In this document: piece by piece, positions 7,014 through 50,139 of the stretch
Position numbering within the stretch: the first letter of the stretch is position 1
How the letters are laid out: every line of letters starts with the position of its first letter
Assembly (NCBI RefSeq): GCF_035956715.1
Contig: NZ_CP108381.1
Coordinates: 2,294,001 to 2,358,000, forward strand
Direction: 5' to 3'
DNA from: Nocardia sp. NBC_01329
Lineage (GTDB): Bacteria; Actinomycetota; Actinomycetes; Mycobacteriales; Mycobacteriaceae
DNA length: 64,000 bases
Notes under the pieces: model-generated
The model's input: only the letters and a program-made list of their open reading frames with translations
What the model was told of the DNA's origin: nothing
Database searches by the model: none
Position numbers and translations under genes: made by a program

Positions 7014-8099
7014 TCAGCGGTGTGCGGCGTGGCCGGCGCCGACGGCGTCGGCCAGGCTGCGGTAGCCCCCAGCTCGCAGTTGTGCGGCGATTCCCCGATG
7101 TATGCGCCGGGCCCACAGCGGTCCGCCGTAGATGAATCCGGTGTAGCCCTGAAGGAGGGAGGCGCCGGCGAGGATACGTTCCCAGGCCTGCTCGGGGGTT
7201 TCTATTCCGCCTACGGAGACCAGGACGAGCCGGTCGCCGACTCGGGCGTACAGCCGCCGCAGCACTTCGAGAGCGCGGTCGGCCACCGGTGGGCCGGACA
7301 GCCCACCGGCCCCGATCGCGGCGACCTGCTCGGGGTCGCTGGCGAGCCCGCTGCGGCCGATGGTGGTGTTGGTGGCCACGATCCCGGCGACACCGAGTTC
7401 CACGGCGAGATCGGCGGCCGCGTCGATATCCTCGTCGGAAAGGTCGGGCGCGATCTTGACCAGAACCGGCACCCGCACGCTGTCGAGGACGGCGGTGAGG
7501 ACCGGGCGCAGAGATTCCACGGCCTGTAGGTCGCGCAGTCCCGGGGTGTTCGGAGAACTGACGTTGACGACCACGAAATCGGCGAGCGGCCCGAGCAAGC
7601 GGGCGCTGGTGGCGTAGTCGTCGGCAGCATGCGCGGCGTCGACCACTTTGGTTTTGCCGATATTCGCCCCGATCGGCACGGTCGTCGTCCGGGTGTGGAG
7701 GCGGGCGGCCGCGGCGGCGGCGCCGTGGTTGTTGAACCCCATCCGGTTGATCAGGGCCCGGTCGGCGGGGAGCCGGAACAGGCGGGGCTGCGGGTTGCCG
7801 GGCTGGGCGGCGGCGGTAACGGTGCCGATCTCGGCGAATCCGAAACCGAGGGCGCCCCAGGCATCGACTCCGGTGGCGTCCTTGTCGAATCCGGCGGCCA
7901 GGCCGAGCGGGGTCTCGAATTCGATTCCGAACGCGGTCGTGCGCAGGATGGGGTCGTCCACGCCGAACAGGCGGTGCAGCAGGGCTCGGGTGGGGGCGAG
8001 GGCGGTGGCCGCTCGGATCACGCCGAAGACGATCCGGTGGATGCGTTCCGGGGGGAGCAGGAACATGACACGGAGCAGTAGTCGGTACAGCACGCTCAT
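7014..8099 (-). CDS. pyrD: Quinone-dependent dihydroorotate dehydrogenase (class 2)
   Basis: 361-aa flavoprotein oxidising dihydroorotate to orotate with electrons passed to menaquinone, in pyrimidine synthesis at the membrane. An N-terminal amphipathic helix pair ([18 protein letters not shown]) gives the class-2 membrane attachment. FMN and substrate motifs include [31 protein letters not shown] with the catalytic Ser, and ATNTTIGR. The reading frame stays open upstream to 8465, but the ATG at 8099 matches the family length and overlaps the DUF5703 stop by ATGA, implying coupled translation in the lipoprotein-DUF5703-pyrD operon. Confidence 0.97.
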
Positions 8100-8362
8100 A
8101 GCTCCGCGGAATGCCCGGCGGGGCCGGCGAGCGCGGTCTTGCGGCGGCGTAGCAGGACGCGGCGGCTGCCGTCGGTGTAGGCGCGGACGCGGGAGAGCTC
8201 CCAGCCGCCGTATTCGGCCTGGATCGCCAGCCGCATGGAGGCGGTGACCCGGGTGACGTCGGGCGGCAGGCGCAGCGGTACGTACTCGTAGTCTTCGCTG
8301 CTGGTGTCCCAGGTGGCCGGGAGCGTGGTGCGCGAGGTCGCGCCACGTCGAGTGGATGCCAT
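8096..8362 (-). CDS. DUF5703 family protein
   Basis: A small 88-aa basic protein conserved upstream of pyrD in mycolic-acid actinomycetes (Rv2137c type, from memory). Recognisable core: [20 protein letters not shown] followed by [17 protein letters not shown] and a C-terminal RRVLLRRRK. There is no signal peptide. Its ATG shares one base with the TGA of the lipoprotein gene, and its own TGA overlaps the pyrD ATG, so the three genes are tightly coupled. Function is unknown. Confidence 0.85.
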
Positions 8363-23078: not shown

Positions 23079-23588
23079 CTATTCCAGTGCTGCGGCAAAG
23101 GCCGCAAGTGCTCGCTCGTCGAACAGCACGAACCGCACATATTCGACGGCCGCTTCCGCGGCACCCACCGTCTCGACGGCAATTCGGGCACCGTCGTCCA
23201 TCGGCCAGCCGAAGATGCCGGTGGAGATCGCGGGGAAGGCCACAGTCTCGGCACCCAGTTCCGCTGCCACACGCAGGGATTCGCTGTAGCAGGAGGCGAG
23301 CAACGCCGAGCGGTCCTCGGTGGCCGACCATACCGGGCCCACGGTGTGGATCACCCAGCGCGCGGGCAGTCGTCCCGCGGTCGTCGCCACCGCCTGCCCG
23401 GTCGGCAGCCCCTTGCCGAGGTGCGCGGCGCGCAGGTCTCGGCACTCCGACAAGATCTCGGGTCCGCCCCTGCGGTGAATGGCGCCGTCGACGCCACCGC
23501 CACCGAGCAACGAGGAATTCGCGGCGTTGACCACCGCGTCGACCTGCTGTTCGGTGATGTCGCCGCGCACGGCCTCCATTCGCATCAT
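23079..23588 (-). CDS. Macro domain protein (O-acetyl-ADP-ribose deacetylase type)
   Basis: A 169-aa stand-alone macrodomain. Motifs: VRGDITEQQVDAVVNAANSS with the catalytic Asn, LLGGGGVDGAIHRRGG, and the second ligand loop AFPAISTGIFGWP. It removes ADP-ribose from proteins or hydrolyses O-acetyl-ADP-ribose. Start set at ATG 23588; a GTG/ATG extension to 23648 is unlikely. No obvious ribosome binding site. Isolated between a TetR gene and the P450 operon, without a visible ADP-ribosyltransferase partner. Confidence 0.92.
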   Translation of the reverse strand: MMRMEAVRGDITEQQVDAVVNAANSSLLGGGGVDGAIHRRGGPEILSECRDLRAAHLGKGLPTGQAVATTAGRLPARWVIHTVGPVWSATEDRSALLASCYSESLRVAAELGAETVAFPAISTGIFGWPMDDGARIAVETVGAAEAAVEYVRFVLFDERALAAFAAALE

Positions 23589-23725
23589 CGGTCCATTGTG
23601 CTGGTATGACCGATCGCGACGCCATCGGATAAGCGGCGTACCGATCACCGAGCCGAAGTGACGTCAAAATTCGCCGACGAACGACGCCCGAATTCGAATT
23701 CCTGGCATAACCACCGGGCGCATCG

Positions 23726-24559
23726 TTACGACCGCACCTCGGCTGTCGTGGTGCGCTGTGTCCGCAGGTACCAGTTCATCCATCCGAACAACAGAAGTAC
23801 GCAGGTGGTGCCGAACAATGGTGACGTAACGGCGGCCACCTGCACCGGAACGGTGAGCACCAGCGCGACACGTGCCACCGACTCCCCGACGAGACCGGCT
23901 CCCCAAGCCGCTGCGATAATGCGGTTCTGCCGCCGGAATGCCCTCGAATGATCCCAGGCCTCGTCCCAGCTCATGCCATCCGGGACGAAGTCCCGACGGA
24001 TGTAGAAGGTCAGCGGGCGCCGCAGTGTCAGTGACGCCAGAATCGCCGCACCCATCACGGCGGTGATGATCGGATCCTTGAGGAGCACGACCCGCGCATC
24101 GCCGGTCAGCAACCCCGCCAGGATGCCCAGTGCGAAACGAGCCGTCACGAGCATCGCCAGTGCACTGATCCGTCGATGTCGGATATAGCTCACACCGACC
24201 CGCAGTACGGACACACCGCCCGCGACCACGAGGGCGGTGACATCGGATACCCCTACCAGCTTCAACGCCAGGTATGCGGCGTAAGGCATCCCCACATCGA
24301 CGATGATCGTCTTGGTGACCAGCCACCCGGACGTCCTGTCGGGGCGTCGTGTTTCGACTGTGCTGTCTTCGGTTACCGTGATCGCGCGCGCCGGACATCT
24401 CGAAATCGCCTCGACGACGGCGTGCCGGTGTTCGGCCGCCGGGTGCTCGGTCAAAGTTTCGACGAGGCCGGTGTCGTCGTTCTGGTCGAAGACCGCCGCG
24501 GCGGTCGACACACAGTTTCCCGATCCGATGCAGACACCGTGATCGACTCGAATACGCAT
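23726..24559 (-). CDS. Fusion of a [3Fe-4S] ferredoxin to a polytopic membrane domain
   Basis: 277 aa in one uninterrupted frame. Residues 1-65 are a P450-type ferredoxin with three cluster cysteines (Cys10, Cys16 in CIGSGNC; Cys55 in SRCPARAI). After a 20-residue linker, residues 85-277 form several TM helices resembling VC0807-like membrane proteins (KTIIVDVGMPYAAYLALKLV, LAGLLTGDARVVLLKDPII, VALVLTVPVQVAAV, TTCVLLLFGWMNWY). The ATG lies five bases after the P450 stop, so the two are co-translated. The protein is likely a membrane-tethered redox partner. The fusion is unusual; I re-read the junction codons and see no frameshift. Confidence 0.85.
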   Translation of the reverse strand: MRIRVDHGVCIGSGNCVSTAAAVFDQNDDTGLVETLTEHPAAEHRHAVVEAISRCPARAITVTEDSTVETRRPDRTSGWLVTKTIIVDVGMPYAAYLALKLVGVSDVTALVVAGGVSVLRVGVSYIRHRRISALAMLVTARFALGILAGLLTGDARVVLLKDPIITAVMGAAILASLTLRRPLTFYIRRDFVPDGMSWDEAWDHSRAFRRQNRIIAAAWGAGLVGESVARVALVLTVPVQVAAVTSPLFGTTCVLLLFGWMNWYLRTQRTTTAEVRS

Positions 24560-24564
24560 CGCGG

Positions 24565-25797
24565 TTACCAGTCGACCGGCAGTGACTGCACGCCGTAGAC
24601 GATCGAGTCGGCTCGGAACGTGAGTTCGTCGGGCGATACGGCCAACCGCAGTGTGGGAAATCTGCTTGCCAGCTCCGGAAGGGCGGCCTGCATTTCCATG
24701 CGCGCCAGCGGCGCCCCGACACAATGGTGGATGCCGTGACCGAACGCCAGATGCCCGCTCGGCTTCCTGGTGATGTCGAAGGTATCGCCGGCGAGTATCG
24801 GATCGCGGTTCGCGCTGGGGATCGAGCAGAGCACCATATCGCCCGCCGCGATATGGTGCTCGCCGATCATCGTGTCCTGCAGGGCTGTTCGAATCCCGGG
24901 GTGGTGGACAATCGAGAGATGACGCAGCAGTTCCTCGACTGCCCGGCTCGCGTTCGCCGGATCTTCCCGTAGTGTCGCCCATTGGTCCGGGTGTTCGAGC
25001 AGCAGCAGAGTGGACAGCGCGAGCATGCTCGCGGTGGTCTCGTGCCCGGCGAGCAACAGCAGTGTGCCTATCCCGATCAGATCCGCGTCGGAGAGCGCGT
25101 CGCCGTGGTCGAGCACCAGCATGCTCAACAGGTCGCCCCCCTGGTCGGAACGTTTCATTCGCACCAATTCGGCCATATAAGAACGTGATTCGGCGCCGGC
25201 GGACGCACGCTCGTCGTGGCCGCGTGACCGATCGAGCTGGACCGCGCCGCGTTTCTGGAAGTCGGCACGGTCTGCGTAGGGCACGCCGAGCAGTTCGCAG
25301 ATCACCAGTGACGGCACGGGTAGCGCAAAGCTGTCGACCAGATCGACCGGTCCGCCGCGCGCGGCCATCGCGTCCAGATGTTCGACGACGATCTGCTCCA
25401 CCCTGGGTTGCAAACGGCGCATTCGCTTGACGGTGAACGCTGGTGTCAATACTCGGCGTAGCCGTGTGTGTTCCGGTGGGTCGGCAGCAACGAGCGGACC
25501 GGGAGCGATATCGGCCATTTGCGCGGCGGCCCGCTCGCCGAGGGTCTCGGCGAGGTGTTCGGCCATGCGGTCGAAACTGTTGCTGTACAGCGCGGCATCG
25601 CCGAGCACTTCCCGAGCGTCGCGGTAGCGGGTGACCAACCACACCGGGACCGATATCGATCCCATCGGAAAGCGAACCCGGCTGACCGGTGCGGCTTCAC
25701 GGCGTCGGACGAGTTCGGCGGACAGGTCGAACAGTTCACGTTGTCGATAGAAAGGTATGGGGGGCGTGGGCGTCATCGATCGAATCCGTTCAGTCAT
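24565..25797 (-). CDS. Cytochrome P450 monooxygenase
   Basis: 410-aa soluble bacterial P450. I-helix oxygen-binding motif LLLAGHETTASM, ExxR in VEELLRHLS, and the haem loop FGHGIHHCVGAPLARMEM with axial Cys are intact. General style is CYP105/CYP107-like; no substrate can be named. The ATG at 25797 (MTERIRSMTPTPP) was chosen, with 25776 an alternative. It is followed by the ferredoxin-membrane fusion and preceded by two palindromes that probably bind the upstream TetR, which is transcribed in the same direction. Confidence 0.94.
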   Translation of the reverse strand: MTERIRSMTPTPPIPFYRQRELFDLSAELVRRREAAPVSRVRFPMGSISVPVWLVTRYRDAREVLGDAALYSNSFDRMAEHLAETLGERAAAQMADIAPGPLVAADPPEHTRLRRVLTPAFTVKRMRRLQPRVEQIVVEHLDAMAARGGPVDLVDSFALPVPSLVICELLGVPYADRADFQKRGAVQLDRSRGHDERASAGAESRSYMAELVRMKRSDQGGDLLSMLVLDHGDALSDADLIGIGTLLLLAGHETTASMLALSTLLLLEHPDQWATLREDPANASRAVEELLRHLSIVHHPGIRTALQDTMIGEHHIAAGDMVLCSIPSANRDPILAGDTFDITRKPSGHLAFGHGIHHCVGAPLARMEMQAALPELASRFPTLRLAVSPDELTFRADSIVYGVQSLPVDW

Positions 25798-25822: not shown

Positions 25823-25883
25823 CGAGAGTCGACTCTCGTCTGCCCTCTCGGGCGAAGGTAGCACAAGTGAGAGTTGACTCTCG
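25823..25883. promoter_or_regulatory. Twin palindromic operators between tetR and the P450 gene
   Basis: CGAGAGTCGACTCTCG (25823-25838) is a perfect 16-bp palindrome. GAGAGTTGACTCTC (25869-25882) repeats the core with one change, 45 bases further, inside a longer partly symmetric CACAA...TTGTG frame. The centre-to-centre distance is about four helical turns. They are likely binding sites of the TetR encoded at 25920-26582, controlling the P450-ferredoxin pair. Confidence 0.7.
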
Positions 25884-25919: not shown

Positions 25920-26582
25920 TCAACTCCGGTCGTGTGATCCTGTGCCGTTGCGTGTGTCGAACGACGGTAAGGGGGTAGCCGCGGCCGGACGTATCGCATC
26001 CAGAATCAGTGCGAGGTATCGCCGCCATCCGTTGCCCGGACCGCTTCCGGCGCTACCCATTCCGAGGAACATGGCGTCTTCGGCGCCCCCGAGACGCTGC
26101 GCGCTGATCAACATGGTGGTCAATCGGGGCAGATCCGCGGCCACGAGATCATCGCGCACCACCCCCGCGTCCTGCGCTCGCCGCAGCACCATTCCGAATG
26201 CGTCGAAATACCGTGCGGCCAACCCGGTGAAGACATCCGGCGACTGCGCGGCCGCGATCACCCGCTGATCGCCTGCGGCGACCTCCAGTAACACCGTCAG
26301 CATGTCGACCATGGCTCGCCATGGGTCCGCCGTGGCCAGCGCCACGGCGACCACCGGTTCGACATCCTCGTCGAACCGCCGCGCGAGCACGGCCTGTATC
26401 AACTCGTCCCGGCTCGCGAAATGCCGATACAGCGTCGCCGCACCCACGCCGGCGCGACCGGCGATCGCGCTCAGCTGCGTATCCGCGCCGTGTTCGGAGA
26501 ACGCTTCGTGCGCGGCCACCAGGATCCGCTCGATATTTCGGGCCGCGTCGGCGCGCGGCCGCCGACCGGGAGTGGAGGCCAT
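25920..26582 (-). CDS. TetR family regulator of the P450-ferredoxin pair
   Basis: 220 aa. The helix-turn-helix is TQLSAIAGRAGVGAATLYRHF at about 35-55, followed by ASRDELIQAVLARR. The ligand domain resembles the AcrR/SlmA-like majority and has a disordered tail. It lies immediately upstream of, and in the same orientation as, the P450 gene; the 122-base gap carries the GAGAGTYGACTCTC palindromes, the probable operators. Confidence 0.9.
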   Translation of the reverse strand: MASTPGRRPRADAARNIERILVAAHEAFSEHGADTQLSAIAGRAGVGAATLYRHFASRDELIQAVLARRFDEDVEPVVAVALATADPWRAMVDMLTVLLEVAAGDQRVIAAAQSPDVFTGLAARYFDAFGMVLRRAQDAGVVRDDLVAADLPRLTTMLISAQRLGGAEDAMFLGMGSAGSGPGNGWRRYLALILDAIRPAAATPLPSFDTRNGTGSHDRS

Positions 26583-27511: not shown

Positions 27512-29113
27512 TCAGTCCGCGTCATGGTCGGGCGCCCGCTCCGCCGCGTACTTCCTGGCCCAGGTGTAATCCGGTTTACCGCTGGGTGAGCGGACGATCG
27601 TCTCGGTGATCCACACCGCGCGGGGCACCTTGTATCCGGCCAGGTGGGTGCGGACGTGCGCGCGCAGATCGCCCGGATCCAACCCGTCGCCGGTGAGGCT
27701 CACGACCACCGCGACCCGCTGACCCCAGCGTTCGTGATCCACCCCGATCACCGTGGCGTCGTAGATGGCGGAATGCGATTTCACCACGCCCTCCACTTCC
27801 TCGGCGAACACCTTCTCACCGCCGGTGTTGATCACCATATTGCCGCGGCCGATGAGGCTGATGGTGCCGTCGTCCTCCAGGCGGGCCCGGTCGTCGGTGA
27901 CCACGATCCGCTGCCCGTCCACCACTTTGAACAGTTTGTCGGTGCGTTCGGGATCCTTGTAGTAGCCGAGCGGGACCGCCCCGGTTTTGGCCAGCCACCC
28001 CTCGGCTCCGGGCTCCACCGGATGTCCGGCGTCGTCGACCACGACCGCGCCACGTCCGATCGATACGCGGGGTTTACGGGCCGGGTCGGCGTCGCGCTGC
28101 GCGAACCCGATCCCGCCGAAACCGGTTTCGGAGGAGCCGATGGAATCGGAGACGAACAGGTTCGGCACCAGATCCAGCAGCGCGTTCTTGGTCGACTGGG
28201 TGAGCAGCGCCGCACCCGAGGCGATCATGAACAGCCCGGTCGCGTCCACCGGGTCGCTACGGTAGGAGTCGATCAACGGGCGGGCCATCGCATCGCCGGT
28301 GACCACCAGGACCCCGGGTCGCTCGGCGGCGATCGTGCGCCAGACGTGCGCGGGATCGAAACGGGGTACGAAGATCGCACAGTTGCCGGACCACAGGGCG
28401 ATGAAGGTCGGCATCATCGCCGCCAGATGCATCAGCGGCGGCAGGATCATCCAGGTGGAGGGTTCGCCCGCGGCACCGGTACGCGATTGCTGGTATTCGT
28501 CGGCGACCGGCTCGTTGCTGTAGAAGTCGATCCCACCACCGAGCACCCGCCACATGTCCTCCTGCCGCCACAGCACGCCCTTGGGCATACCGGTGGTGCC
28601 GCCGGTGTACATCATGAACAGGTCGTCGGCGGTCCGCGACACCTCGGGCCGGGTCGTGGGGGCCGCCGCGGTGACCTCGACGAGGCAATCCACGCCGGGA
28701 TCCGCCGGGGTTCGATCGTCGGCCGCGCACAACAGATATTTCAGCCGTGGCGACCGTTGCGCGGCCGCGCGCACCGCGTCGCCGTAGCAGGCGTGGTAGA
28801 CGAGGTATTCGAGGTCGGCATTGTCGTAGAGGTAGGCGAGTTCGTCGGGGCCGTACCGGAAATTGATGTTGACCGGTACGGCAGCCAGTTTGAAGCAGGC
28901 GATCAGGGTCTGCATCGTATCGATGCTGTTGTGCATCTGGAATCCGATATGGGTGCCGCGAGTGACCCCCTGAGCCGCGAGATGGTGGGCGAGCCGGTTG
29001 GCGTCTTCCTCCAGTTCGCGGTAGGTGACGCGCCGGCCTTCCTCGATCAGCGCGATCCTTTCGGGCATGGCGTCGACCGAGTGTTCGAACAGGTCGGCGA
29101 AGTTATTGGCCAT
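27512..29113 (-). CDS. Acyl-CoA synthetase, FadD19-like
   Basis: 533-aa ANL-superfamily ligase. Core motifs: FMMYTGGTTGMPKGVLWR at about 170, DSIGSSETGFGG, DRARLEDDGTISLIGRGNM and SGKPDYTWARKY with the C-terminal catalytic Lys. The sequence style closely matches FadD19/FadD17-type ligases, which activate steroid side-chain or other branched carboxylates. The ATG at 29113 was chosen (MANNFADLFEHSVD); the open frame to 29290 is an overlap artefact. Last gene of the ferredoxin-NTF2-unknown-ligase operon under operator copy B. Confidence 0.9.
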   Translation of the reverse strand: MANNFADLFEHSVDAMPERIALIEEGRRVTYRELEEDANRLAHHLAAQGVTRGTHIGFQMHNSIDTMQTLIACFKLAAVPVNINFRYGPDELAYLYDNADLEYLVYHACYGDAVRAAAQRSPRLKYLLCAADDRTPADPGVDCLVEVTAAAPTTRPEVSRTADDLFMMYTGGTTGMPKGVLWRQEDMWRVLGGGIDFYSNEPVADEYQQSRTGAAGEPSTWMILPPLMHLAAMMPTFIALWSGNCAIFVPRFDPAHVWRTIAAERPGVLVVTGDAMARPLIDSYRSDPVDATGLFMIASGAALLTQSTKNALLDLVPNLFVSDSIGSSETGFGGIGFAQRDADPARKPRVSIGRGAVVVDDAGHPVEPGAEGWLAKTGAVPLGYYKDPERTDKLFKVVDGQRIVVTDDRARLEDDGTISLIGRGNMVINTGGEKVFAEEVEGVVKSHSAIYDATVIGVDHERWGQRVAVVVSLTGDGLDPGDLRAHVRTHLAGYKVPRAVWITETIVRSPSGKPDYTWARKYAAERAPDHDAD

Positions 29114-29157: not shown

Positions 29158-30408
29158 TCAGAGAACGGTGAGGGGCAGCGGGATACCGCGGTCGGCGAAC
29201 CGGAAGTCGACACCGGTGCTGAAGCGGGTGATGGCGACCTCCGGTGCTTCGGCGAACGGTTCGTCGGCGCGCGAGATCTCGGCGATCCAACCCTCCGGGC
29301 CGTCGCCGACGACCCGGCTACCCAGATGCGGGTCGACCCCGCGGACCAGCGAGTCCAGCGGACCGAGATGATCCGGATCGATCATCGACAGCCAGCCGCG
29401 GTCGGTGAGAGCGCCGCTGGTCGCAGGGAACCGGATCCGCACCACGCCGATGCCGGGCGCGACTTCGACATCGGTGTAATGCCGCGGGTTCAGGGCGGGA
29501 TGTACGCGCAGTACCTGGGCCAGCGCTTCCAGGTCGGTGCCCAGCCCGAGGCAGGCACGGATCCGCTCCGAGGCGACTGCGGCGATCCCGGTGAGCTGTT
29601 TGCGGCCGATCTCCAGGGCGGAATCGTCATCGATGCGGTCGTGTACGGCGATCATGAACCCGAGCACCAGCAGATGCTGCTGCAGGCACACCTCCTCGGC
29701 GATCCGGACCAGGGCCGAATGCGAGAAATCGGTGAACCGCAGATCGCTGAGCAGTGGCCCGCTGTAATCGGCCATACCTTCGTCGCCGGGATCGATATCG
29801 GCCAGCGGTAATCGCGCGGCGACCGATCCGGCGACCAGCGGCGTATTACGCGGCACCTCGGGTGGTGTGTGCGATTCGTCGATGACCACCGTCCACGCGC
29901 ACACGGGATGCCGGTCGGCCGGTTGTCGCGGTGGCCGATGGATGGGCCTGACCTGGGCGTATTTATTGGTGGCCAGTGCCGTGGCATCGAAGGTGGGGTC
30001 CTCGATGTCATGGCACATGGCCGTCACGTAGTCGGGACCCATCGGTTCCACATCGACCAGGGCGCCGCAGTGGTCGAGCCAGAACTCGCCGTGGCGGGCG
30101 TCCTCGACGCGGAACCGGAAATCCATGAACTGCGGCGGCGCCCCGATATCGAGTTGCAGTCCCTTGAATATGGTGACCACATCGTCGCCGGTGTACCCGA
30201 GGGCCTGCTGCATCCGCCGGGTATAGATCGGGCTGGACAGCTGCCATTCCTCTATCGCGACCTCGGCCATACCTTCGCGGCCGAACGCGGAGATGCAGTG
30301 TGCCATCCCGGATCGGTCGATCAGCTGCCCGCACAGCAGCAGTTCGGGTACGAGCGCGGCCAGCTGTGCTCGACTCAGATCGTGGAATCGGCTGTTGGGG
30401 GCTGTCAT
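29158..30408 (-). CDS. Unknown conserved-looking protein, 416 aa, in the cyp51-type regulon
   Basis: No family recognised. Soluble, without TM segments or a signal peptide. Conserved-looking polar clusters are MAHCISAFGREGM near the N-terminus, HGEFWLDHCGALVDVEPMG at about 110-130 and AMCHDIEDPTFDA; the paired Cys/His residues could bind metal or form an active site. A second half (HLLVLGFMIAVHDRIDDD onward) is mostly helical. The ATG at 30408 was chosen (MTAPNSRFHDL), 5 bases after the NTF2-like stop. Tight linkage with ferredoxin, NTF2 and ligase genes suggests a catalytic role in the same pathway. Confidence 0.8.
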   Translation of the reverse strand: MTAPNSRFHDLSRAQLAALVPELLLCGQLIDRSGMAHCISAFGREGMAEVAIEEWQLSSPIYTRRMQQALGYTGDDVVTIFKGLQLDIGAPPQFMDFRFRVEDARHGEFWLDHCGALVDVEPMGPDYVTAMCHDIEDPTFDATALATNKYAQVRPIHRPPRQPADRHPVCAWTVVIDESHTPPEVPRNTPLVAGSVAARLPLADIDPGDEGMADYSGPLLSDLRFTDFSHSALVRIAEEVCLQQHLLVLGFMIAVHDRIDDDSALEIGRKQLTGIAAVASERIRACLGLGTDLEALAQVLRVHPALNPRHYTDVEVAPGIGVVRIRFPATSGALTDRGWLSMIDPDHLGPLDSLVRGVDPHLGSRVVGDGPEGWIAEISRADEPFAEAPEVAITRFSTGVDFRFADRGIPLPLTVL

Positions 30409-30413
30409 CGCAG

Positions 30414-30965
30414 TCACCACAGGGAGGCGGGCGAAGTACCGATCCGGTACCACCCGGGCAAGCGGCGGGAGGTGGCCTCGGCGATCCGCGCGTTCATCCC
30501 GTCCGACATCGCCTTATCGGTCATCATCTCCAGGAACAGCGCCGAGACGTTGCCGAAGTCGAAGAAGTCGCGCTGCCACGACCACTGGTAGTCGCCGCCG
30601 TAACGGAACCAGCTGCCGCCGATTCCGTTCACCGTGTACTTGCTGCCGTCGGCGCGGGGCGTGGTGTCGTAGACCTGTTTCCAGAAGCCGATGACATCGC
30701 CGCTGCGTTCGTCGATGACGAACTGCTGGTACGGGTACTGCCAGCCCTCCAGGCCCGCCATCTCCTGGCCGAGGGCGAGGTCGCGTATCTCGTCACGGCC
30801 GACGGCCATGAATTCGTCGGTGGGTCCGTAGTTCCAGCCGTAGGTGGCATCGGCGGTGTACATCTGCGCCAGCGGTTTCCAGTCGCCGAGCTTCTCGCAT
30901 CGTTCGTTCTCCGCGACCCAGCGGCGCACCATTTCGTCGAGTTCGGCGCGATCGAAACCTGTCAT
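30414..30965 (-). CDS. NTF2-like/SnoaL family protein
   Basis: 183 aa with the cone-shaped NTF2 fold pattern: MVRRWVAENERCEKLGDWKPLAQMYTADATY near the start, then GRDEIRDLALG and a beta-rich half (QYPYQQFVIDERSGDVIGFWKQ). Family members include ketosteroid isomerase, limonene hydrolase and dehydratases; the Asp/His pattern here does not prove one. M. tuberculosis has an NTF2-like gene (Rv0760c) close to cyp51 (from memory), consistent with a sterol- or polyketide-like substrate. Second gene of the operon. Confidence 0.85.
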   Translation of the reverse strand: MTGFDRAELDEMVRRWVAENERCEKLGDWKPLAQMYTADATYGWNYGPTDEFMAVGRDEIRDLALGQEMAGLEGWQYPYQQFVIDERSGDVIGFWKQVYDTTPRADGSKYTVNGIGGSWFRYGGDYQWSWQRDFFDFGNVSALFLEMMTDKAMSDGMNARIAEATSRRLPGWYRIGTSPASLW

Positions 30966-31017: not shown

Positions 31018-31218
31018 TCATCCCTCGTCGGCGACGACCATGAGGGCCTGAGTGGGGCAGTAGCGGACCGCGTTCTCCGCATCGGCCTTCAGGTCCGGAC
31101 CGGGTCTCGGGTCGAGGATCTCGACCTGCCCGCGTTTGGGCACGGAGAAGACGTCGGGTGCTTCCGCGGCGCAGACGGCATGCCCCTGGCACAGGTCCAG
31201 ATCGGCCACGATCTTCAT
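31018..31218 (-). CDS. [3Fe-4S]/[4Fe-4S] P450-type ferredoxin
   Basis: 66-aa ferredoxin, first gene of the minus-strand operon. Cluster motif CQGHAVC (Cys10, His13, Cys16) plus RYCPTQAL supplies three Cys, with His at the position of the usual second Cys, a feature known from mycobacterial P450 ferredoxins such as Rv0763c beside cyp51. It probably donates electrons to the CYP51 encoded at 48.8 kb. The ATG at 31218 was chosen; the promoter has operator copy B. Confidence 0.92.
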   Translation of the reverse strand: MKIVADLDLCQGHAVCAAEAPDVFSVPKRGQVEILDPRPGPDLKADAENAVRYCPTQALMVVADEG

Positions 31219-48780: not shown

Positions 48781-50139
48781 CTAGTTTCCCGGCTGCCTGC
48801 GGCGGTACCGCACCCGGCACGGCTGCTGCAACTGCACGACCATCTTGGAGTGATCGTTGCGGTAGGTTTCCGAGGGCTGCAGCATCTCGAATTCCCAGTC
48901 CCGCAGCAGCACCGAGAAGATCGCTTTGAGTTGCATCAGCGCGAAGGCCGCGCCGACACAGCGGTGGCGGCCGGCGCCGAACGGGATCCAGGTCCAGCGG
49001 TTGATCAGGTCTTCCTGGTTGGGGTCGATATAGCGGCCGGGATCGAAGCTGTCCGGGTTCGGGAAATCCTCGGCCAGCCGGTTGGAAATCGCGGGGGTCG
49101 CCGCCACATGATCACCGGGCTCGATCCGGTTTCCGCACACTTCGAACACGCCCTGGGCGACCCGCATGAGAATGATGAGCGGGGGATGCAGCCGCAACGT
49201 CTCCTTGAGTACCGCCTCCAGTTGCGGGATCTGGCGCAGCGCGTGGAAGCTCACCTCCTGGCCGTCGGCGTAGAGCTCGTCGAGTTCCTTCACCACGCCG
49301 GACAGTGCTTCCGGGTGGCGCAGTAGCTCGATCACCGACCAGGCGGCAGTGCCGGAGGTGGTGTGGTGCCCGGCGAACATCATCGAGATGAAGATGCCGG
49401 TGACCTCGCTGGCGCTGAAATGTGGAGTGCCGTCCTCTTTCTGCACCGACACCAGCACATCCAGGAGGTCGCGGTCCTCTTTGTCGGCCGGCGGGTTCGC
49501 GATCCGTCCGTTCATGATTTCCTGGACGAGTTCTACCAGGGCGGCGCGGGATTCGTCCCGGATCCGGAAGCTCTCGATCGGCATGTACGGGTCCACATAG
49601 GCCAGCGCGTCGGTTCCGCGTTCCAGATTGTGGTAGAGCTGTGCGAACCGGCTGTCGAGTTCCTCCCGGAACTTGGTGCCGATCAGGCAGGCCGAGGATG
49701 TGTAGATGGTGAGTTCGGCGAAGAAGTCGAGCAGGTCGATCTCACCCTCGTCGCCCCAGGTCGCCAGCATCCGGTCGACTTCTTTCTCGATGGTCGCCGC
49801 GTGCCCGCGCATCTGGTCGCCGCGCAGTGCGGAGTTGTGCAGCATCTCCTTGCGCCGTTCCGGGCTGGCGTCGAATACCACGCCTTCGCCGAAAATCGGT
49901 TTCATGAAGGGGTAGGCCGCGGCCTGGTCGAGGTCCTCGTCGGCGGCGCGGAAGAAGAATTCGTTCGCTTCGGCACCGGTGAGCAGGACGACGTGGCGGC
50001 CGGCGAGTTCGAACTGGCCGACGTTCCCGCATTCTTCCCGTACCCGGCGCATCAGCGCGATCGGGTCGGTCCGGAATTCCTCCAGGTGGCCGTGTTCGTG
50101 TTCGCCTCCGGACACCCGCGGCGGTTTCACCGAAGTCAT
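48781..50139 (-). CDS. cyp51: Sterol 14-alpha-demethylase, CYP51 family
   Basis: 452-aa P450, nearly collinear with M. tuberculosis CYP51 (Rv0764c, from memory): PRVSGGEHEHGHLEEFRTDP, KPIFGEGVVFDASPERRKEM, CYP51-specific B-C region, I-helix MMFAGHHTTSGTA with the His typical of CYP51, ETLRLHPPL, and haem loop FGAGRHRCVGAAFA (Cys near 394). It can remove the 14-methyl group of lanosterol-type sterols in vitro in relatives, yet actinomycetes make no sterols, so its native substrate is open. Controlled by operators D and E in the divergent promoter with the SDR gene; the ferredoxin at 31.0 kb is its likely electron donor. Confidence 0.95.
   Translation of the reverse strand: MTSVKPPRVSGGEHEHGHLEEFRTDPIALMRRVREECGNVGQFELAGRHVVLLTGAEANEFFFRAADEDLDQAAAYPFMKPIFGEGVVFDASPERRKEMLHNSALRGDQMRGHAATIEKEVDRMLATWGDEGEIDLLDFFAELTIYTSSACLIGTKFREELDSRFAQLYHNLERGTDALAYVDPYMPIESFRIRDESRAALVELVQEIMNGRIANPPADKEDRDLLDVLVSVQKEDGTPHFSASEVTGIFISMMFAGHHTTSGTAAWSVIELLRHPEALSGVVKELDELYADGQEVSFHALRQIPQLEAVLKETLRLHPPLIILMRVAQGVFEVCGNRIEPGDHVAATPAISNRLAEDFPNPDSFDPGRYIDPNQEDLINRWTWIPFGAGRHRCVGAAFALMQLKAIFSVLLRDWEFEMLQPSETYRNDHSKMVVQLQQPCRVRYRRRQPGN

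Follow-up and report, generated by a model that had tools for sequence, protein, structure and literature searches.

A Nocardia ferredoxin fused in frame to a VC0807-family membrane domain behind a soluble cytochrome P450

Comparison of five Nocardia genomes shows, at the level of sequence, a conserved cassette comprising a TetR-family regulator gene, palindromes, a cytochrome P450 gene and a gene in which a ferredoxin is fused to a VC0807-family membrane domain, with the fusion kept in frame under selection. (The window referred to throughout is the whole stretch of 64,000 nucleotides from Nocardia sp. NBC_01329 that was analysed.) Joined in this way to a protein for which six membrane helices are predicted, the ferredoxin probably delivers electrons from a membrane-bound position. 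The reading given somewhat better than even chances is of a class I P450 cassette that a ligand would induce and in which the ferredoxin would stay permanently attached to the cytoplasmic side of the membrane, the fusion's pairing with the P450, its membrane location and its electron flow all being putative. Bacterial P450 ferredoxins are usually small, separate, soluble proteins, and eukaryotic microsomal P450 systems fix electron delivery in space by other means; a membrane-tethered ferredoxin that occurs naturally and is conserved would do so by construction, and could serve as a template when P450s for lipophilic substrates are engineered. The fusion also offers a handle on the VC0807 membrane family.

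The fusion gene occupies positions 23726..24559 of the minus strand, on which 24559..23726 reads as 277 codons from an ATG to a stop at its end (a product of 277 aa, about 30 kDa), and on the plus strand of the same interval stops interrupt the frame read. The earlier note on this DNA left the strand unstated and it can now be given as minus; the note's description of a ferredoxin with Cys10, Cys16 and Cys55 running in frame into a VC0807-like membrane protein is borne out both by translation and by profile matches to the two parts. Residues 1-65 (24365..24559, minus) are the ferredoxin domain, with the pattern CXXSXXC(X)nCP (C10-I-G-S13-G-N-C16 plus C55-P56, the variable position being serine in all five fusions), and Pfam's Fer4_13 covers residues 5-62 (E 1.3e-9, 39 bits against a cut-off of 24.5). 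A linker of residues 66-82 (24314..24364, minus) leads to the membrane domain, residues 83-263 (23771..24313, minus), for which six transmembrane helices are predicted, with both ends cytoplasmic; the NCBIfam profile NF041646 VC0807 covers exactly these residues (E 9.5e-40, 136.3 bits against a curated cut-off of 65) and is matched over nearly the whole model, positions 4-189 of 189. As read from the motif, the cluster would be of the [3Fe-4S] type. Of the features used to recognise P450-associated ferredoxins of this type, the fusion ferredoxin has CXX?XXC(X)nCP with a non-Cys '?' and a gene adjoining that of a P450; its 277 residues and six predicted membrane helices depart from another, a small soluble product of about 60-100 residues, and make it a variant rather than a typical member. 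The computed pI of the fusion ferredoxin domains, 4.4-5.4, equals or exceeds the upper limit of the 3.7-4.4 range for the ferredoxins in Table 1 of PMC6237146 (a source drawn on here in excerpt), which is counted against the tethered-ferredoxin reading.

A genus-wide search of 150 Nocardia genomes (up to 16 candidates per genome, cut-off 1e-12) recovered the same full-length architecture, at 276 residues, in four genomes further to the window's own (five of the 150 in all): Nocardia vulneris NBRC 108936, N. brasiliensis NBRC 14402, N. brasiliensis IFM 10847 and one denoted G086. Their proteins are about 70% identical to that of the window (for the three named relatives, 69% across the alignment and 71% in the locus comparison below). 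Between the window and the four relatives, dN/dS is 0.17-0.26 in the ferredoxin and 0.22-0.26 in the membrane domain, and both are thus under purifying selection; the linker, at 0.49-0.67, drifts yet is unbroken in all five genomes, and its length differs from that in the window by three codons, in frame, in all four relatives. However, as the four relatives are mutually close, with N. vulneris and G086 sharing neighbouring genes, the five genomes represent in effect two lineages, which is likewise counted against the tethered-ferredoxin reading. The earlier note had proposed a search for the same fusion in other genomes, now found in four other assemblies, and had named a frameshift or stop in the linker (around 24340-24380) as fatal to its claim; the linker is in frame in all five.

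As judged from these alignments, the fusion is real and no error. That it reflects a sequencing or gene-calling artefact, or that two proteins are made, is scarcely credible with four other assemblies showing the same architecture. The one feature that can be cited in favor is a start-type codon conserved at aligned position 91 of all five fusions (ATG in the window, GTG in the four relatives). An internal start there is possible, and is counted against the tethered-ferredoxin reading, but the codon sits inside the first helix and the 20 bases inspected contain no Shine-Dalgarno-like sequence at the usual distance.

Beyond the genus, searches with a profile of the fusion in 397 genomes at the level of the order and 396 at that of the phylum (cut-off 1e-20) gave no further fusion, a limited negative because only six candidates per genome were scored; the earliest match starts at profile position 36, so that the ferredoxin part is uncovered. 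A one-genome-per-species scan with short peptide patterns yielded eight relatives, three of them fusions and five ferredoxin-only matches. When 102 distinct VC0807 domains are considered, a ferredoxin motif is in frame with the domain in just the five fusions and 97 are without it (the count derives from 231 loci with frames taken from the match, and includes 20 stretches that are mostly genus-search matches starting early in the query; locus L215 gave no match). From the perspective of the ferredoxin the fusion is again unusual, since the 20 other related ferredoxins in the fetched loci all end 0-19 residues past the fold (the remaining 15 of 35 rows being copies of the five fusions). In a plasmid collection 47 records match the fusion, with two covering 80% of the query and neither being a fusion. 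The match on a plasmid of Streptomyces sp. BHT-5-2 (residues 1-226) ran through a stop and corresponds to an ordinary P450 plus a ferredoxin ending past the fold, and that on a Caballeronia plasmid (H1) is to a VC0807 domain only.

The P450 gene of the cassette (24565..25797, minus) specifies 410 aa from the ATG at 25797, with ATG 25776 also possible, and AGHETT and FGHGIHHCVG are present. Its product has no N-terminal hydrophobic segment, and the placing of the fusion behind a soluble P450 in the earlier note holds for lack of such an anchor. Nor is it a self-sufficient enzyme or a P450-ferredoxin fusion: the frames are separate, with the P450 stop 5 nt before the fusion ATG in the window (TAA CCGCG ATG) and a spacing of 6 nt in the four relatives. 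Its closest solved relatives include biosynthetic P450s, e.g. OxyB entries, the best being 5ysm (E 1.7e-94), the rifamycin P450 Rif16. Upstream of the P450, and co-conserved with the cassette, is the gene for the TetR-family regulator (25920..26582, minus); common to the window and the loci of the three named relatives are TetR (79-81% identity), the P450 (80-81%) and the fusion (71%). In all five fusion genomes the ferredoxin-bearing gene directly follows that of a P450. P450 and ferredoxin are adjacent, and no reductase gene is present in the three-gene cassette; the two Reductase_C genes of the genome are both far away and unlinked.

With respect to genomic setting, the other window genes have no match in the 12.8-kb loci of the three named relatives beyond weak paralogue matches (a second P450 at 48901-49554 and a weak TetR) and antisense or out-of-frame readings of the cassette. 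With the flanking window genes unmatched in relatives, and N. vulneris and G086 sharing other neighbours, the TetR-P450-fusion unit sits in two different surroundings, and the cassette may have moved as a block. In looking for an empty site, the gene to the left of the fusion was found in relatives, with none of nine other window genes beside it in five stretches (one of which ends at a contig end), and these stretches gave no clean empty site. Window positions 23079-23648 presumably encode a macro domain. Elsewhere in the window, a second ferredoxin frame (31018-31218, minus) has CXXHXXC then CP, by motif an ordinary P450-type ferredoxin, and behind it on the same strand are, among others, a frame with no Pfam match (29158-30453) and an AMP-ligase gene (27512-29113). 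The stretch 48901-49554 (minus) shares 26-28% identity with the relatives' cassette P450 and is probably a second P450 gene in the window.

Between the TetR and P450 genes are two palindromes, GAGAGTCGACTCTC at 25824..25837 and, 45 bp from it, GAGAGTTGACTCTC at 25869..25882, considered probable operators 1 and 2. With one mismatch allowed, shuffled windows contain 0.03 such sites on average. Each of the four relatives has one exact copy and another with a single changed position. Among the 150 Nocardia genomes, exact GAGAGTYRACTCTC is present in six, namely the five fusion genomes, where it is found only upstream of the cassette P450, and one other (G004), whose single site is inside a long unrelated open frame; the 8 kb read there hold no cassette gene. 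From their sequence and distribution the palindromes look like a probable private operator of the neighbouring TetR, which would bind there.

A different arrangement is seen in a further relative, G127, where a locus (L159, 6233-8131, minus) has TetR (73%) and P450 (71%) genes orthologous to those of the cassette and a similar palindrome, TTGAGAGTTGGCTCTCAA, in front of the P450. Behind the P450 no ferredoxin or membrane gene is present in the locus read. The partnership of P450 and fusion is hence not obligatory, and this type of P450 can do without an adjacent ferredoxin, a point counted against the tethered-ferredoxin reading; either the fusion was lost in G127 or it was added in the other lineage.

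On the tethered-ferredoxin reading, TetR, bound at the two palindromes, would keep the P450 operon off until displaced by a ligand, probably hydrophobic; the P450 and fusion would be co-translated. Anchored beneath the membrane by the six helices, the ferredoxin domain would be reduced by an NAD(P)H ferredoxin reductase encoded elsewhere in the genome and would in turn reduce the soluble P450 docking at the membrane, with hydroxylation occurring where the lipophilic substrate or product sits. By analogy, the fusion ferredoxin may carry single electrons at low potential, supplied by an NAD(P)H reductase; for the serine-type Fdx9 of Mycobacterium marinum, whose gene is beside that of CYP105Q4, a [3Fe-4S] cluster was concluded and a potential at or below -340 mV given in the excerpts of PMC6237146.

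A structure model of the fusion (from 8 sequences, mean pLDDT 61) has a ferredoxin fold and six long helices coinciding with the hydrophobic stretches. The nine top-ranked Foldseek matches are all ferredoxins, among them the P450-associated 4id8 and the M. tuberculosis Fdx 8amp, with a best E of 0.017; no PDB entry matches the model at E 0.001, and only the ferredoxin part ranks sensibly. Counts of Lys plus Arg in successive loops are 4, 0, 3, 1, 8, 0 and 3 in the window protein, i.e. 4, 3, 8 and 3 in inner and 0, 1 and 0 in outer loops, and the means for 58 stand-alone homologues are 3.2, 0, 2.9, 1.0, 7.6, 0.1 and 4.1. With these residues concentrated on the inner loops, both ends of the membrane domain, and hence the ferredoxin, are predicted to be cytoplasmic.

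Of 32 positions conserved in at least 75% of the 58 homologues, the window protein retains 27 and those of the four relatives 25-26, and D88, D162, W219, E226 and R230 are present in all five fusions. However, R156, invariant in the homologues, is Thr in the fusions of the four relatives (L031, L032, L033 and G086), where the nearby Asp154 is Asn, and the membrane domain may be partly relaxed there, a further point against the tethered-ferredoxin reading. Retention of most of the family's conserved positions indicates that the domain has not simply decayed into an anchor, although it may have shifted, and is probably more than an anchor, for instance in binding or moving substrate. An extension of this, tentatively raised and rather doubtful, is that the VC0807 domain is a substrate-handling module that would bind or move a lipophilic molecule in the bilayer and couple that to P450 oxidation via the ferredoxin it carries; if true, the two proteins would form a membrane oxidation station, and the VC0807 family would have its first functional clue. 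Twenty stand-alone members were scanned, and all 20 match NF041646, 13 match DUF3159 and 5 match IspA weakly.

The neighbourhoods of stand-alone relatives are pertinent to what the membrane domain might otherwise do. In 60 of these (5 to 16 kb, most 9 kb; the membrane match was recovered in 58, L145 and L149 giving none) a P450 is found in three and a related ferredoxin in none, so there is no clear association of stand-alone VC0807 with P450s, and this is counted against the tethered-ferredoxin reading. The closest stand-alone relative (L099 of genome G423, 7777-8325, minus; 43% identical) adjoins genes for a DrrA-type ATPase, a BTAD regulator and an NDP-hexose 2,3-dehydratase, and another VC0807 gene lies some 8 kb away; on such gene content VC0807 proteins may belong to antibiotic clusters. 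A DrrA-type ATPase as a general VC0807 partner was considered and dropped, with ATPase matches in four of the 60 neighbourhoods, G423 included. In another locus (L105, 4072-6080, plus) a stand-alone VC0807 gene is directly upstream of a same-strand P450 gene whose product is 43% identical to the cassette P450.

Such arrangements have a bearing on an alternative that is unlikely though far from negligible, in which the ferredoxin serves the P450, the VC0807 domain has a separate job, such as product export or tolerance, and their joining fixes only stoichiometry and location. The company kept by the 43%-identical relative and the L105 gene order would both fit, as would the conservation of 25-27 of the 32 positions and the fact that no other protein of this genome exceeds the NF041646 cut-off. 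Separate genes would serve such an arrangement equally, yet the frame is kept in five genomes and the linker, for all its relaxation, is never broken.

Another alternative, quite improbable, is that the ferredoxin feeds the membrane domain as the enzyme and that the P450 is served by other ferredoxins. The P450 of G127 with no ferredoxin behind it is in accord with this, and M. tuberculosis FdxB joins a ferredoxin, a reductase and a desaturase domain (excerpts of PMC9868604). Against it, the ferredoxin gene is directly behind that of a P450 in all five genomes, and among VC0807 homologues His is conserved to at most 39% in any column and Cys to less than 25%, with the window protein lacking either of the two His columns above 25%; accordingly no heme or metal site is visible in the domain. 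The same shortage of conserved redox-cofactor ligands weakens the proposal, made in the earlier note, of coupling to the quinone pool, in which the membrane domain would move electrons between quinol and ferredoxin. Membrane location, itself predicted, is the one point in its favor. A potential like that of Fdx9 is far below that of menaquinol and too low for reduction by quinol. With the genome having two genes for proteins with a ferredoxin-reductase-type C-terminal domain, and the value for serine-type Fdx9 as above (PMC6237146, in excerpt), quinone coupling is very improbable.

With regard to known systems, the parts of the fusion have been encountered and their combination is apparently undescribed: no account of a ferredoxin combined with a VC0807 domain turned up in the open-licence literature searched, in which the name VC0807 is also absent, and literature on YciB/IspA and DUF3159 gave no usable lead. 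The combination is conserved in one small group of Nocardia. Like other members of the VC0807 family (NF041646, weakly similar to DUF3159 and IspA), the fusion has a full-profile match, the helices and most conserved positions, and differs from the 97 other distinct domains in fetched loci in having an in-frame ferredoxin motif. The desaturase domain of FdxB (Rv3554) is a membrane domain. Ferredoxins fused to P450s, to reductases and, in M. tuberculosis FdxB, to a desaturase domain are known from the excerpts of PMC9868604. The M. marinum ferredoxins Fdx1-Fdx11 resemble the fusion in cluster motif, fold and P450-adjacent gene, with Ser at the variable position as in Fdx9, but have 61-97 residues according to Table 1 of PMC6237146 (in excerpt), whereas the fusion has 211 further residues after residue 66. 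FdxB, actinobacterial like the Nocardia fusion, has its ferredoxin covalently tied to the desaturase domain (PMC9868604, in the part used); the VC0807 domain shows no conserved cofactor ligands, whereas the other domains of FdxB are themselves redox enzymes. The CYP51-Fdx of M. capsulatus likewise has a [3Fe-4S]-type ferredoxin within a larger protein of a P450 system, with the difference, on the same partial source (PMC9868604), that there the ferredoxin is joined to the P450, and in Nocardia to a membrane protein with the P450 separate.
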